Shown here: piece by piece, positions 2 to 52,183 of the stretch
Position numbering within the stretch: position 1 is the first letter of the stretch
How the letters are laid out: every line of letters starts with the position of its first letter
Assembly (NCBI GenBank): GCA_001655195.1
Contig: LPNY01000139.1
Span: 31,424 to 95,423, forward strand
Direction: 5' to 3'
Source: Arcobacter sp. EP1
GTDB lineage: Bacteria; Campylobacterota; Campylobacteria; Campylobacterales; Arcobacteraceae
DNA length: 64,000 nucleotides
Translations under genes and position numbers: made by a program
The notes under the pieces: model-generated
Told to the model about the DNA's origin: nothing
Databases searched by the model: none
The model's input: only the letters and a program-made list of their open reading frames with translations

Positions 2-679
2 GGAAAACCACTGTATACGTCTCATATGTTAGATTTAAGTGAAGAGAGCTTAGAAGATAACATTGGAACATGTGTTGAGTACTTTGAACGAATGAACAAA
101 CTTGATATGATGATTGAAATTGAGCTTGGTATCACTGGTGGTGAAGAAGATGGTGTTGATAATACAGAAGTAGACAATGCACTTTTATACACACAACCAG
201 AAGAGGTTTGTTATGCTTATGAAGCACTTAGCAAAGTAAGTGAAAACTTTACAATTGCAGCTTCATTTGGAAATGTACATGGGGTATATAAACCAGGTAA
301 TGTTGTGCTTTCTCCAAAAATCTTAGATAACTCACAAAAATTTATCGCCCAAAAACATAACACTGAAGCAAAAGCAGTTGACTTTGTATTCCACGGTGGT
401 TCAGGTTCAGAACTTGGAGAAATCAGAGAAGCAATTGATTATGGTGTTATTAAAATGAATATTGATACAGATACTCAATGGGCATTTTGGGATGGTGTAA
501 GAAAATTTGAATCTAAAAATAGAGATTACTTACAAGGACAAATTGGTAACCCTGATGGGGATGATAAACCAAACAAGTCGTATTATGACCCAAGAAAGTG
601 GTTAAGAGCAGGGCAAGAGGCGATGATAGCTAGACTAGAGACTGCATATTCAGACCTATGTTCTATTAATAAAAACTAA
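2..679 (+). CDS. fbaA: Class II fructose-1,6-bisphosphate aldolase, C-terminal part (gene cut by window edge)
   Basis: The enzyme cleaves fructose 1,6-bisphosphate to dihydroxyacetone phosphate and glyceraldehyde 3-phosphate in glycolysis, or condenses them in gluconeogenesis, in the cytoplasm. The reading frame is open from base 2 and encodes the family sequence PLYTSHMLDLSEE before the first in-window ATG at 26, so that ATG is internal and the true start lies upstream. Visible family signatures are the acidic EIELGITGGEEDGVDN stretch, the HGVYKPGN segment, the metal/phosphate-binding FHGGSGS loop, and the IKMNIDTDTQWAFW segment near the C-terminus. About 226 residues of a family that is usually about 350 residues are present. 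A small hairpin follows the stop codon. Family assignment is certain; the N-terminus cannot be seen. Confidence 0.95.
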   Translation, partial: GKPLYTSHMLDLSEESLEDNIGTCVEYFERMNKLDMMIEIELGITGGEEDGVDNTEVDNALLYTQPEEVCYAYEALSKVSENFTIAASFGNVHGVYKPGNVVLSPKILDNSQKFIAQKHNTEAKAVDFVFHGGSGSELGEIREAIDYGVIKMNIDTDTQWAFWDGVRKFESKNRDYLQGQIGNPDGDDKPNKSYYDPRKWLRAGQEAMIARLETAYSDLCSINKN

Positions 680-690
680 AAATTAATTTA

Positions 691-713
691 TTCGCTCATC
701 TTTTGAGCGATTT
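691..713 (+). terminator. Probable transcription terminator hairpin after fbaA
   Basis: A 7-bp inverted repeat (TCGCTCA at 692-698, TGAGCGA at 704-710) with a 5-nt loop follows the aldolase stop codon by 12 bases. Only a short T stretch follows, so termination strength is uncertain. Confidence 0.5.
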
Positions 714-724
714 CTATGTTGTCA

Positions 725-800
725 CAACTCTTTAACTCACTCACATACTTTAGTATGCTCCTAAGTTAAAGAGTTGCTCCGCCTTGAACTCATCTCAAAA
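725..800 (+). repeat. Nested-hairpin intergenic repeat, copy 1 of 3
   Basis: A perfect 12-bp outer stem (725-736 with 765-776) encloses the conserved core CTCAC-A-TAC/GTA-T-GCTCC, which itself forms an inner hairpin (CATACT at 744-749, AGTATG at 752-757). A tail containing GCCTTGAA follows. The same architecture, with different but still paired bases, recurs near 20563-20660 and 52041-52105. All three copies lie shortly downstream of a plus-strand gene (here fbaA). The spacing, core and tail are conserved while stem sequences change, which suggests selection on structure or spread of a palindromic element. Confidence 0.7.
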
Positions 801-871
801 TCTAAACAACTAAATTAATTTTGAAGATTTATTTTAACTATATAAGAAGTAGATTATTTAATGGATAACTT

Positions 872-1258
872 TTATTTACTTTCTTCCGTAATCAAAGCCA
901 AATTATTCAAATTATGTTTTTGCAATAAATCCAAAACCTTTACTACTCTTTCATACTGAACTGTTTTATCAATACGAACAATAATAGATTTTTTCTTATC
1001 TTCTATCTCTTTAAGATTATCTTCTAAGGATTCAAAAGAAACCTCTACTCCTTTGATAGCTAGTTTATTAGGGCTTAGTTCAATAAAAACTTCATCTTTT
1101 TTTACTTCCACAGCTTTTGCATCTGAACTAGGTAGGTCAAGCATGAGTGCTAGTTCCTCTTTTTTAAAGGTGGAGCTTACGATGAAAAAGATAAGCAGAA
1201 TAAAGACCACATCAATAACAGGAGTGAGGTCTATTCCTAAAGGTTCACGACGTTTCAT
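872..1258 (-). CDS. exbD: ExbD/TolR-family biopolymer transport protein
   Basis: This is the small subunit of an energy-transducing inner-membrane complex that uses the proton gradient to drive TonB- or TolA-type transport. The 128-residue protein has the family layout: a short cytoplasmic N-terminus, one membrane segment at about residues 12-30 with the conserved proton-path aspartate in LTPVIDVVFILLIFF, and a periplasmic domain ending in IDKTVQYERVVKVLDLLQKHNL. Its start overlaps the last base of exbB, so the two are co-transcribed. No tonB or tolA is adjacent, so the partner must be encoded elsewhere and ExbD versus TolR cannot be separated from sequence alone. Confidence 0.92.
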   Translation of the reverse strand: MKRREPLGIDLTPVIDVVFILLIFFIVSSTFKKEELALMLDLPSSDAKAVEVKKDEVFIELSPNKLAIKGVEVSFESLEDNLKEIEDKKKSIIVRIDKTVQYERVVKVLDLLQKHNLNNLALITEESK

Positions 1259-1731
1259 TAGTCAATTATCTCTTTTTTTGCTTTTAACTCTATTGCATCC
1301 ACCATTGAAATAAAATGATTGTAGGCTATATGATGAGGTATGGCTACAATTAGCCCAGCGATAGTTGTGATTAATGCAATAGAGATACCTTGTGAAAAAA
1401 TAGTGGGGTCACCTAAACCATTTTGTGTCATGGCTTCAAAAGATTTTAGTACCCCGTAAACCGTTCCAAGTAGTCCTAATAGTGGCGCAACTGTAGCGAT
1501 ATTTTTAATATAAGTTAATCCAGACTCTAATTTTTTCACCTCATACTCTATTTGTGCCGTAATAGTTGCCGCACTATCGGTTATAACTTTTGAGCGTATT
1601 TTTCTCACCATAGCATTTTTTCGTGGGATGGTTAAAAACTTCCAAATGATAATAGTAAAACCAATGAGATTTAGTACAATTAAAAGATAGACAATAATGC
1701 CACCTTTATCAATATATTCTAGGATATTCAT
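1258..1731 (-). CDS. exbB: ExbB/TolQ/MotA-family proton channel protein
   Basis: This is the large subunit of the ExbB-ExbD (or TolQ-TolR) stator complex in the inner membrane. The 157-residue protein has a first membrane segment at about residues 12-32 and two more in the C-terminal half. Between them lies the family signature ATVAPLLGLLGTVYGVLKSF, followed by the TTIAGLIVAIPHHIAYNHF channel segment. It is the first gene of a two-gene minus-strand operon with exbD and is divergent from the PLP enzyme at 1796, with 64 bp between starts. It is shorter than E. coli ExbB (244 residues) but typical of the short Campylobacterota form. Confidence 0.92.
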   Translation of the reverse strand: MNILEYIDKGGIIVYLLIVLNLIGFTIIIWKFLTIPRKNAMVRKIRSKVITDSAATITAQIEYEVKKLESGLTYIKNIATVAPLLGLLGTVYGVLKSFEAMTQNGLGDPTIFSQGISIALITTIAGLIVAIPHHIAYNHFISMVDAIELKAKKEIID

Positions 1732-1784
1732 TAAAACTCTTTAATAATTTTTTGTAATTGTAATATATTATAGTTAATGAATAG

Positions 1785-1790
1785 TATAAT
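1785..1790 (+). promoter_or_regulatory. -10 box (TATAAT) almost touching the start codon of the next gene
   Basis: TATAAT ends five bases before the ATG at 1796, and no Shine-Dalgarno sequence is visible. Transcription initiating the usual 6-7 bases downstream would begin at or inside the start codon, giving a leaderless mRNA. An upstream AT-rich promoter (TATATT region near 1764) is an alternative. Confidence 0.4.
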
Positions 1791-1795
1791 AACCC

Positions 1796-2659
1796 ATGAA
1801 ATATATTAATTCTCCCGTCCAAGAAATGACGTTTAATCACCATAAGATTTTTCTCAAACGCGATGATTTACTGGATGTTGATTTCTCTGGTAATAAAGCG
1901 CGAAAATTCTATTACTATTTATGTAATGAATTCCCAAAAATTACGCGTGTCATATCACACGGTTCAGCCCAATCCAATGCCATGTATTCTTTGTCGGTTT
2001 TATGCAACTTGCGTGGTTGGAAATTTGATTATTATGTGGATCATATTGCATCATTTTTAAAACAAAACCCTGTGGGTAATTTTAAAGCAGCTTTGAATAA
2101 TGGTATGAATATTCACGAAGACAAAATCCCAAATGTATTGGATGAACAAACGCTTTTTATTCCCGAAGGTGGAGCATTAAAAGAAGCACAATATGGCATA
2201 GAGATTTTAGCAAATGAAATTGAGTCATGGGTAAAAGAACACAAGTTTGCGAACCTAAAAGTTTTTCTACCATCTGGAACTGGCACCACTGCTTTGTACT
2301 TACAAAAGTATCTCTCATGTGAAGTTTTAACGTGTGCTTGTGTTGGTGATGAAGCTTATTTGCAAAAACAGTTTGATTTATTGGAGCCTAGAAATCACCC
2401 AACCATACTACCACGAAAGAAAAAGTATCATTTTGGGAAGCTTTATAAAGAGTTTTATGAAATGTATCAAAATCTATTAGAAACAACAAAAATAGAGTTC
2501 GATTTACTCTATGACCCCCTAGGATTCACTATTTTACAAGAGTATCTTAAAACATTTAAAAATAAAGAGCTACCAACAATATTATACATTCACCAAGGTG
2601 GTATTTTAGGAAACAGTTCAATGGTATCACGCTATAAAAATAAGTATGAAAAGCTATAA
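1796..2659 (+). CDS. PLP-dependent 1-aminocyclopropane-1-carboxylate deaminase / D-cysteine desulfhydrase family enzyme
   Basis: Members of this fold-type II PLP family deaminate D-cysteine or related amino acids, releasing ammonia, pyruvate and in some cases sulfide. The N-terminal motif IFLKRDDLLDVDFSGNKARKF carries the lysine (in GNKARK) expected to bind PLP. The PEGGALKEAQYG and FLPSGTGTTALYL segments match the phosphate-binding and cofactor regions, and IHQGGILGN lies near the C-terminus. At 287 residues it is slightly shorter than the roughly 330-residue characterised enzymes. The family is recognisable but the substrate is not. It is a single gene divergent from exbB, and the -10 box sits directly against the start codon, so it may be translated from a leaderless message. 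Confidence 0.8.
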   Translation: MKYINSPVQEMTFNHHKIFLKRDDLLDVDFSGNKARKFYYYLCNEFPKITRVISHGSAQSNAMYSLSVLCNLRGWKFDYYVDHIASFLKQNPVGNFKAALNNGMNIHEDKIPNVLDEQTLFIPEGGALKEAQYGIEILANEIESWVKEHKFANLKVFLPSGTGTTALYLQKYLSCEVLTCACVGDEAYLQKQFDLLEPRNHPTILPRKKKYHFGKLYKEFYEMYQNLLETTKIEFDLLYDPLGFTILQEYLKTFKNKELPTILYIHQGGILGNSSMVSRYKNKYEKL

Positions 2660-19567: not shown

Positions 19568-20538
19568 TGGAAATTTTTAAAAGTGATAAAATATATAATT
19601 TTATGGGAAAAAGACTTCCTTTTTTAGGATTGTCTTCGATTCTTGTAATTGCTTCTCTTGTGTTACTTCTTACCAAAGGATTAAACTTTGGTATTGACTT
19701 TGCAGGGGGAACACTGATTCAAGTAAAATATGATAAACCTGCACCCATTAAAGATATTAGAACGATTTTAAAAGGCACAGAAAAATATGCTAACTCAACA
19801 ATTACTGAGTTTGGTAGTGTGGATGAAATTGTTATTCGTATCAAAGGAACATCGTCAAGTTTAGCAAATGATGTTGGTGATGAGATTTCAAAAGTACTTA
19901 AAAACACTGGAAACTTTGAAATTCGACGAGTTGATATGGTTGGACCAAAAGTAGGGGATGAGTTACAAGAAAAAGGGATTATGGCACTAAGCCTATCGTT
20001 ACTTGTAATTTTAGCTTATGTAAGTTTCAGATTTGAGTGGCGATTCGCCGTTGCCTCTATTTTTGCATTAGTACATGATGTTGTGATTGCCTTGGGTGCT
20101 ATTTCACTCATGAGTGTTGAAGTAAACCTAGATATTCTAGCTGCAATTTTAACTATCTTAGGATACTCTCTGAACGATACTATTATTGTATTTGATAGAA
20201 TTAGAGAGGGTGTGCAAAAATCAAAAGAGTCAATTCTAAATAAAGTAGTTAATGAATCAGTTTCAAAAACACTTTCAAGAACAACTCTTACGTCATTAAC
20301 AACATTCTTTGTTGTTGTGACACTCTTTATGTTCGGTGGTGAGATTATTCATGGATTTGCCTTTACAATGCTTGTGGGTATTATTGTCGGTACATATTCA
20401 TCTATTTTTGTTGCCGCGAGTTTCTTAGTTCAATTGAAGTTCGATATTGGAAACTTCAGAGCAAAAGAAGCAGATAAAGTGAAACAACAAAAAGAGAAGG
20501 ACAAAATGAGAGCGATGTACGAGCAAGGAACTGTATAA
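19567..20538 (+). CDS. secF: Protein translocase subunit SecF
   Basis: The 323-residue inner-membrane partner of SecD. It has the N-terminal helix followed by GLNFGIDFAGGTLIQVKY (D1-like motif), a short periplasmic domain, and five C-terminal helices with the signature LGYSLNDTIIVFDRIREG. The chosen ATG overlaps the secD stop (TAATG), the expected coupled start; an upstream GTG at 19549 would add six residues inside secD and is less likely. A long hairpin and an intergenic repeat follow. Confidence 0.96.
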   Translation: MEIFKSDKIYNFMGKRLPFLGLSSILVIASLVLLLTKGLNFGIDFAGGTLIQVKYDKPAPIKDIRTILKGTEKYANSTITEFGSVDEIVIRIKGTSSSLANDVGDEISKVLKNTGNFEIRRVDMVGPKVGDELQEKGIMALSLSLLVILAYVSFRFEWRFAVASIFALVHDVVIALGAISLMSVEVNLDILAAILTILGYSLNDTIIVFDRIREGVQKSKESILNKVVNESVSKTLSRTTLTSLTTFFVVVTLFMFGGEIIHGFAFTMLVGIIVGTYSSIFVAASFLVQLKFDIGNFRAKEADKVKQQKEKDKMRAMYEQGTV

Positions 20539-20562
20539 CCGTTTTCTTGTTTCATCTTTTGG

Positions 20563-20660
20563 AATAAATCGTCGTTCGATACGACGATTTATTTCACTCA
20601 CTTACTTCAGTAAGCTCCCTCAAAAATCATCTACTCTGCCTAGATTTCTCCTCAAAACCT
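20563..20660 (+). repeat. Nested-hairpin intergenic repeat, copy 2 of 3 (with secF 3' hairpin)
   Basis: A perfect 13-bp stem (20563-20575 with 20581-20593, 5-nt loop) is followed by the conserved core CTCAC-T-TAC/GTA-A-GCTCC, with an inner hairpin CTTACT (20601-20606) and AGTAAG (20609-20614). A tail containing TGCCTAGATTTCTCC follows. The core pair differs from copy 1 by a compensatory change (A-T becomes T-A). The 13-bp stem probably also ends secF transcription. Confidence 0.65.
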
Positions 20661-20696
20661 AAAACAATAAAACGCTTATATGAAAATTTTTAATTT

Positions 20697-20715
20697 TGTG
20701 ACAGAAACTGTGACG
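20697..20715 (+). promoter_or_regulatory. Direct-repeat operator-like motif shared with the STAND gene
   Basis: The 19-mer TGTGACAGAAACTGTGACG contains two TGTGAC copies 12 bp apart. The same motif with only two substitutions lies on the minus strand at 38892-38910. It is 44 bp upstream of the start at 20760, compared with 47 bp for the other gene, and immediately upstream of a TATAAT box (20725-20730). It therefore covers the -35 region. A shared regulator is inferred. Confidence 0.65.
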
Positions 20716-38891: not shown

Positions 38892-38910
38892 CGTCACAGT
38901 TACCGTCACA
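38892..38910 (-). promoter_or_regulatory. Direct-repeat operator-like motif shared with the gene at 20760
   Basis: Read on the minus strand, TGTGACGGTAACTGTGACG contains two TGTGAC copies 12 bp apart and differs at only two of 19 positions from the motif at 20697-20715. It lies 47 bp before the ATG at 38844. An AT-rich stretch containing TATAAA-like -10 sequences sits between them. Confidence 0.65.
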
Positions 38911-51291: not shown

Positions 51292-52002
51292 ATGAGTAAA
51301 CAAGAAAAAATTGTATCAATGTTTAATGATATTGCAGGAACGTATGATTTAGCAAATAGAGTATTAAGTATGGGAATAGATAAAAGTTGGCGAGATAAAG
51401 CGTGTAACTTAGCCTACTCTTTTTATGGAAAAGATACGGTTTCTAAGATTGTAGATGTTGCTTGTGGTACAGGAGATATGATTGACTACTGGCAAAAAAC
51501 AGCAGGCAAAAATGGTATCAACTTAGAGCAAGTTGTGGGAGTTGACCCAAGTGTTGGTATGATGGAAGTAGCAAAGAAGAAACTTCCTGATGTTGAGTTT
51601 ATTGAAGCAGGTGCTGCTCAAATGCCATTAGATAGTGATAGTGCCGATGTTATCTCTATTTCATATGGAATTCGAAATGTTGTGCAACGACAAGAGGCTT
51701 TTGATGAATTTGCAAGAGTACTTAAAAAAGATGGTTTAGTAGTTATTTTAGAGTTTACAAAAAATAAAAAAGAGAAGCCATTAGATTACGTGACAGATTT
51801 TTATATGAATAAAATTTTACCAACGCTAGGTGGAATGATTTCACGAAATAAAGAAGCCTACACTTATTTGCCAAACTCTATTGATGAGTTTTTAACTCAA
51901 GACAATCTGTGTGCAGAGTTAAGACAAGCTGGATTAGAGCCTATTTATGTAAAAGGGTTCAGTATGAATATCTCAACACTCTTTATCGCTCGAAAAATAT
52001 AG
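51292..52002 (+). CDS. ubiE: Demethylmenaquinone/ubiquinone C-methyltransferase UbiE (MenG)
   Basis: It methylates demethylmenaquinone with S-adenosylmethionine to give menaquinone, the respiratory quinone of this phylum. The 236-residue protein has the UbiE signatures MFNDIAGTYDLANRVLSMGIDKSWR, SAM motif I VDVACGTGDM, GVDPSVGMMEVAK, and SYGIRNVVQRQEAFDE-FARVLKKDG followed by VILEFTKNK. An intergenic repeat follows 50 bp after the stop. Confidence 0.93.
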   Translation: MSKQEKIVSMFNDIAGTYDLANRVLSMGIDKSWRDKACNLAYSFYGKDTVSKIVDVACGTGDMIDYWQKTAGKNGINLEQVVGVDPSVGMMEVAKKKLPDVEFIEAGAAQMPLDSDSADVISISYGIRNVVQRQEAFDEFARVLKKDGLVVILEFTKNKKEKPLDYVTDFYMNKILPTLGGMISRNKEAYTYLPNSIDEFLTQDNLCAELRQAGLEPIYVKGFSMNISTLFIARKI

Positions 52003-52040
52003 GTTAATCTGATAACTATTTTTCACGAACTTCTGCGTTA

Positions 52041-52105
52041 AAGCGTTATTTTAAATGCTCACGTACTACATGTATGCTCCGCTTTAAAATAACACTTTGC
52101 CTTGA
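52041..52105 (+). repeat. Nested-hairpin intergenic repeat, copy 3 of 3
   Basis: Outer stem GTTATTTTAAA (52045-52055) pairs perfectly with TTTAAAATAAC (52083-52093), extended by AAAG/CTTT beyond one mismatch. It encloses the core CTCAC-G-TAC/GTA-T-GCTCC with an inner hairpin CGTAC (52062-52066) and GTATG (52072-52076), one G-T wobble. The tail TGCCTTGAATTTCAT follows. It lies downstream of ubiE in the same orientation as the other two copies. Confidence 0.7.
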
Positions 52106-52183
52106 ATTTCATAAAAACTATCTATCATCTTAACCTATATGGGTAGGATGACTTTTACTTTCTTAAAAAGGAAACTTTTTTAA

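Follow-up and report, generated by a model that had tools for sequence, protein, structure and literature searches.

Three hairpins in the genome of Arcobacter sp. EP1 share a short core and stand at the very ends of the genes fbaA, secF and ubiE. An initial annotation took them for a family of three, either under selection as RNA or as a protein-recognised cruciform, or else REP-like palindromes. The question is which kind of element they are, and what such an element would do at the end of a gene. We analysed a stretch of 64,000 nucleotides (the window; contig LPNY01000139.1, positions 31,424 to 95,423, forward strand), the whole genome to which it belongs (3.0 Mb in 229 contigs), and genomes of other bacteria.

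Three hairpins and their parts

The core, CTCACNTAC(3-8)GTANGCTCC, has three matches in the window, all on the + strand. None is expected by chance and none occurred in 100 dinucleotide shuffles, which upholds the shared core described initially. A covariance model of the whole element, R1, finds exactly three copies, each a single imperfect hairpin of ∼125 nt, or 140-150 nt with its outermost stem. All three fold much more stably than shuffled sequences, with z values of -8.3, -7.0 and -5.4 for copies 1, 2 and 3. The upstream genes had been named correctly and encode fructose-bisphosphate aldolase, SecF and UbiE. The hairpins, which had been placed 30-50 bp past the stop codon, lie closer than that: the model begins 4-8 nt after it, and the hairpin proper starts at the stop codon, whose bases form part of the outermost stem. 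The additional outer stem reported earlier is real, but it is the middle stem of the element, with TTTTG/CAAAA, TTC/GAA and a locus-specific stem outside it. The features of the three copies, which we call ERIC-like for reasons given below, are as follows:

677..679 (+): TAA stop codon of fbaA, where the outermost stem of copy 1 begins
679..690 (+): copy 1, locus-specific outermost stem, 5' arm (partner 811-822)
688..812 (+): copy 1, ERIC-like hairpin (full model R1, 99.4 bits)
725..736 (+): copy 1, middle stem P2, 5' arm (partner 764-775)
740..761 (+): copy 1, conserved core CTCAC-A-TAC TTTA GTA-T-GCTCC (pattern search)
764..775 (+): copy 1, middle stem P2, 3' arm
811..822 (+): copy 1, locus-specific outermost stem, 3' arm
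20533..20552 (+): copy 2, outermost stem, 5' arm, with the stop codon inside (partner 20662-20681)
20536..20538 (+): TAA stop codon of secF
20544..20669 (+): copy 2, ERIC-like hairpin (full model R1, 77.1 bits)
20597..20618 (+): copy 2, conserved core (pattern search)
20662..20681 (+): copy 2, outermost stem, 3' arm
51997..52007 (+): copy 3, outermost stem, 5' arm (partner 52130-52140)
52000..52002 (+): TAG stop codon of ubiE, within the outermost stem
52007..52130 (+): copy 3, ERIC-like hairpin (full model R1, 96.7 bits)
52058..52080 (+): copy 3, conserved core (pattern search)
52130..52140 (+): copy 3, outermost stem, 3' arm

In copy 2 the 5' arm of the middle stem has turned into a self-complementary palindrome.

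The window also holds the direct repeat TGTGAC-N6-TGTGAC, at 20697-20714 (+) and 38893-38910 (-), with 0.17 occurrences expected when one mismatch is allowed. This repeat, perhaps a response-regulator site in promoters, is found 3' of several hairpin copies elsewhere as well (18 of 370 loci, of which some overlap).

A family at the ends of housekeeping genes

A strict core search of the whole genome gave 11 cores (0 for the reversed control pattern), and the flanks of the copies that were read are conserved well beyond the core. Twelve copies were aligned with MAFFT, a 26-pair structure was written by hand, and R1 was built. At E≤0.01 R1 recognises 42 copies in the genome, and 44 when the limit is relaxed to E≤1, a lower bound since the prefilter restricts what is scored; the supposed family of three thus numbers about 42.

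Covarying stems alternate with invariant internal loops in these copies. Outermost is the locus-specific stem beginning at the stop codon, followed inward by TTTTG/CAAAA and TTC/GAA, and by an invariant internal loop in which TGCGTT(G/A) faces GCCTTGA. A middle stem of 10-16 bp, different in sequence in nearly every copy, leads to a second invariant loop, CTCA facing CTCC (CTCAC/GCTCC), and the top is a 5-bp stem, CNTAC/GTANG. The variable N pair, noted initially as A-T, T-A and G-T, does covary over the larger sample: among 45 distinct copies it is UA in 22, AU in 13, GC in four, GU in two and CG in one, with two other combinations and one gap. Standard pairs fill 86.6% of the cells of this 45-copy alignment and 25 of 26 pairs show at least one double change, values biased toward the structure because the alignment was fitted to R1. 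Slid versions of the structure were 30-50% paired on the same 45 copies, none above 50%. In the 12-copy MAFFT alignment from which the structure was written by hand, 88.1% of cells are paired and 17 of 26 pairs doubly changed. The arms of the outermost stem pair better with each other than with arms swapped between copies (-17.8 vs -11.7 kcal/mol). A short local hairpin within the 5' arm was counted, uncontrolled, in 20 of 42 copies and is not drawn on here.

The position of the copies is nearly fixed. For 38 of 45, a same-strand upstream gene has a stop codon ending -19 to +12 nt from model position 1, as measured with a simple ORF caller. Six related genomes are similar: 70 of 73 copies have a same-strand upstream gene, and 65 of 73 lie within -19 to +16 nt of its stop. 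The upstream proteins scanned (20 of 38, some truncated at the edge of the locus) are of the housekeeping kind, namely FabI, Rho, an ammonium transporter, PurH, GyrB, FbaA, UbiE, LepA, MetH, RNase Y, HtpG, HemC, NrdB, MnmE, SecF, GuaB, RuvC, UvrB and CarA; another is closest to the tungstate ATPase TupC, below its cut-off. Around the stem base U is moderately enriched, with a mean of 5.1 T in 8 nt (control 4.0) and at least 5 T in an 8-nt window nearby in 31 of 42 copies. Of the outcomes that the initial annotation named as speaking against it (few copies, no wider covariation, random placement), none was found: copies are many, covariation is strong and location is non-random.

Long palindromes with conserved unpaired patches would also suit a cruciform at the DNA level, its internal loops recognised by a protein such as a replication, segregation or nucleoid factor. 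We regard this as improbable. A cruciform gives no reason to expect so strong a preference for the sense strand of the upstream gene, unless replication strand is behind that preference, and several related genomes carry no copies. Of the two forms of selection proposed at the outset, the sense-strand bias thus favours the RNA.

Selection on RNA is further supported by the double changes in 25 of 26 pairs and by orthologous genes, whose stems co-evolve. The proteins upstream of 104 elements in seven genomes include 23 orthologue groups; fabI and guaB each carry an element in six genera. In 89 of 204 comparisons, against 16.5 expected, the best-scoring element of another genome stood at the orthologous gene. 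In an arm-swap test on the 23 groups (75 members), the element's own arms paired better than arms swapped between species, both for the middle stem P2 (-10.3 vs -4.9) and for the outer stem (-15.1 vs -9.8), each in 22 of 23 groups. Stem sequences have therefore been replaced while pairing was kept. An apparent co-evolution of the coding end with the outermost 3' arm (p 1.4e-4 over 102 non-independent pairs) was lost at the level of groups (12 of 23, p 0.085, not significant) and was set aside.

Retention is not universal. Among 11 relatives compared at guaB (G017 was left out), the element is present in G011 alone; by reading, G009, G020 and G023 have plain terminator-like hairpins in its place, and the remaining relatives have other hairpins or none callable. 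A cross-phylum model, R2, finds 41 copies in the genome of the window and zero in seven genomes of the same family (G004, G007, G009, G012, G020, G021 and G023), from which we conclude that the element is dispensable, a point against the explanation ranked first below. These seven stand beside sister genera with up to 42 copies, a contrast through which a partner gene might come to light.

The presence of one Y1 transposase gene in the genome could suggest REP-like palindromes mobilised by a RAYT, as the initial annotation had proposed to check. We give this very little credence. Over 25 genomes the copies and Y1 genes are uncoupled: G008, G010 and G016 carry 15, eight and 31 copies without a Y1 gene, whereas G021 has 17 Y1 matches and zero copies. 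The Y1 gene is not flanked by copies, the nearest being ∼30 kb away. REP and BIME share with our element their nature as extragenic palindromes; REPs are described as 20-40 bp units with a GTAG or CGTC tag in the part of PMC3733652 available to us, whereas the unit here is ∼125 nt without that size and tag, and its size and core are those of ERIC. The single Y1 gene (IS200-like/RAYT-like; L017, 1120-1866, -) adjoins two near-identical small ORFs, which by reading we take to be a duplicated RelE-type toxin gene.

Relation to ERIC and occurrence in other bacteria

The closest kind of element is ERIC, the enterobacterial repetitive intergenic consensus (also IRU or RU-1). ERIC has the same core, TCACTTACTT..GTAAGCTCC, the same TGCGTT and GCCTT patches, a similar length (∼127 bp, against ∼125 nt here) and the form of a single long imperfect hairpin. 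The consensus of E. coli ERIC printed in PMC2759123, a paper seen in part, displays this core and these patches, and R1 matches an authentic E. coli ERIC with 30.1 bits (E 3.7e-6 in 5.1 kb). The family is therefore called ERIC-like. It is not called ERIC because its outermost stems differ from copy to copy and the copies in this genome have no conserved terminal inverted repeat in common, whereas ERIC has a conserved terminal repeat. Both variable stems are also of other sequence here, the element is held at orthologous genes where ERIC is scattered, and the host is campylobacterotal. The hosts given for ERIC in the accessible parts of PMC10969869 and PMC2759123 are Enterobacteriaceae and Vibrionaceae; our literature search listed no paper on ERIC beyond these two families, a weak result given that most subscription papers, the main ERIC papers among them, lay outside its coverage.

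Other known systems fit less well. None of the 4,227 Rfam families matched the window at gathering score, the only hit of seven loci of this genome (E≤5) was a human lncRNA family that is unrelated, and seven loci of other genomes matched only rRNA and tRNA. Below gathering score, RF02818 (V_AS5, Vibrio RNA AS5) matches the ERICs of E. coli, Raoultella and Providencia (L163, L327 and L128) on the opposite strand and may therefore be an ERIC-derived entry; the window and the seven loci of its genome are not matched by it. The YPAL (RU-2) elements of Yersinia are likewise intergenic and palindromic, but they are ∼168 bp long, and by reading, the printed RU-2 sequence lacks the core, so identity with YPAL was rejected. 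In the part of PMC2229807 seen, YPAL targets lie at or beside dyad symmetries with target duplications of 3-26 bp, and the elements are thought to affect transcript stability. Integron attC sites, riboswitches and ribozymes were considered and dropped as candidates.

In a scan of named genomes with a longer core pattern, at least 120 stretches were found and 80 loci analysed. Among the matches listed are Enterobacteriaceae, Pseudomonas, Legionellales, Desulfobacterales, Nitrospirota, Scalindua, Bacteroidales, Fulvivirga, Clostridia, Coriobacteriales, Alicyclobacillus and Verrucomicrobia. R1, built from the genome of the window only, scores 91 matches (E≤0.1) on these 80 loci, some of them copies missed by the pattern. 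The cross-phylum copies are 83.9% paired with 22 of 26 pairs doubly changed; the loci had been picked by their core, not by the other stems. R1 counts range from 1 to 145 across 22 of the genomes, picked because they had a match. R2 matches 65 of 249 genomes of the Campylobacterota, and in the phylum to which Fulvivirga belongs it matches 36 of 198. Seven stretches with the core pattern occur in viral contigs, and plasmids searched with copy 1 gave no match.

Relatives of the element are mobile in some hosts. In E. coli, a psuT-yeiL query that contains ERIC was covered to 80% or more at one place in 289 of 5,426 genomes. By reading, three ERIC-less genomes have this site uninterrupted, and the filled site has TA on both sides, i.e. 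the TA is duplicated. The ERIC element in E. coli is thus mobile, with precise TA insertion and empty sites. For the copies of the window, whose genus is represented by one genome, no alignable empty site was found. A tandem array was found in Pantoea, and a close inverted pair at another locus:

L137, 483-984: four tandem ERIC-like copies with a period of ∼128 bp, Candidatus Pantoea formicae
L162, 2541-2648 and 6716-6833: near-identical inverted pair ∼4.2 kb apart

The outer stems of the two L162 copies, which are recent, have diverged by a compensatory change, a C/G swap in both arms. By reading, molybdenum-type genes and no transposase are present in the ORF list between them; a cassette reading of close copy pairs was rejected, the genes in between being ordinary in both pairs read.

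Copies also occur in rRNA operons of other Campylobacterota, ∼30 nt past the end of the 23S gene and immediately before 5S or tRNA genes:

L317, 5249-5372 (+), 5536-5660 (-) and 1464-1587 (-): ERIC-like copies in the rRNA operon
L318, L319 and L320: ERIC-like copies 3' of 23S
L322 and L323: ERIC-like copies in the 16S-23S spacer

Three identical units in other Campylobacterota, considered as transposons, turned out to be rRNA operons.

Outside the Campylobacterota, stop-anchoring was counted on the best-scoring copies per genome, not on a random draw. Sense copies within 12 nt of a stop codon make up nine of ten in a deltaproteobacterium, six of seven in an ectothiorhodospiracean, three of four in R. 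flavefaciens and the one copy in Providencia, and by reading the stop-anchored copies elsewhere often have a long outermost stem starting at the stop codon. The corresponding counts are two of 11 in Fulvivirga and five of 11 in Scalindua, where the copies are mutually alike (median score 0.89 and 0.84 of length, respectively).

Probable origin and function of the element

The explanation that we rank first, and consider fairly likely, is that of an ERIC-like element of mobile origin that has been kept to form the 3' end of mRNAs, where it probably terminates or stabilises the transcript. Palindromic elements of ∼125 bp would have arrived as mobile sequences and, in this campylobacterotal lineage, would no longer move freely. 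They sit at the 3' ends of housekeeping genes, inherited across genera, with pairing maintained by compensatory change; the order, mobile first and retained later, we infer. Once RNA polymerase has passed the stop codon, the entire 3' UTR would fold as one long hairpin with its base at the stop codon. The hairpin would then act on the transcript as a terminator, as a barrier by which the 3' end of the mRNA is set and shielded, or as both.

Position, orientation, the plain hairpins of relatives and the maintained pairing together point to the transcript 3' end as the site of action. An intrinsic (Rho-independent) terminator resembles the element in being a hairpin past the stop codon with an A-rich/U-rich base, and in some relatives a plain terminator-like hairpin occupies the place of the element; the much greater length of the element, its conserved internal loops and the weakness of its U-tract set it apart. 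The copies within rRNA operons make an obligatory terminator role unlikely, as a terminator between 23S and 5S or tRNA genes would be harmful, whereas RNA processing or protection would fit both kinds of place. ERIC copies at the 3' ends of Yersinia genes alter transcript levels via an RNase E site, according to the part of a review (PMC10969869) seen, which names no mobiliser of ERIC.

Ranked second, and in our judgement rather unlikely, is that these are purely selfish repeats of the ERIC or MITE type without host function, surviving just after genes where insertion is harmless, and kept paired by template-switching self-correction or by the spread of differing masters. The mobility of the E. 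coli relative with its empty sites and TA duplication, the tandem array in Pantoea and the swapped base pair of the near-identical L162 copies all accord with it. So do the closely similar copies in Scalindua and Fulvivirga, mostly unanchored, which behave as plain mobile repeats and count against retained function. It does not lead one to expect that the same genes are occupied in as many as six genera and that the similarity of elements follows the gene, nor the near-fixed distance and sense orientation; and template switching leaves the long-term conservation of the internal loops unexplained.

ERIC sequences have been used in strain typing for decades, with no known mobiliser or function. 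In our reading ERIC is the closest kind, and the present element is a variant of it that has been retained by vertical descent and occurs in a far broader range of hosts. A broader reading, tentative and in our view somewhat doubtful, would make ERIC the tip of a pan-bacterial structured-RNA family, normally a stop-anchored mRNA 3'-end module whose loops are read by a conserved factor, the mobile, TA-inserting forms of E. coli, Scalindua and Fulvivirga being derived. A covariance model across all phyla would let annotators locate many unannotated copies. The same architecture recurs across phyla and is gene-fixed in one lineage, which offers a natural system for testing what the hairpin does, and the retained, compensatorily maintained copies suggest that function can outlast mobility.
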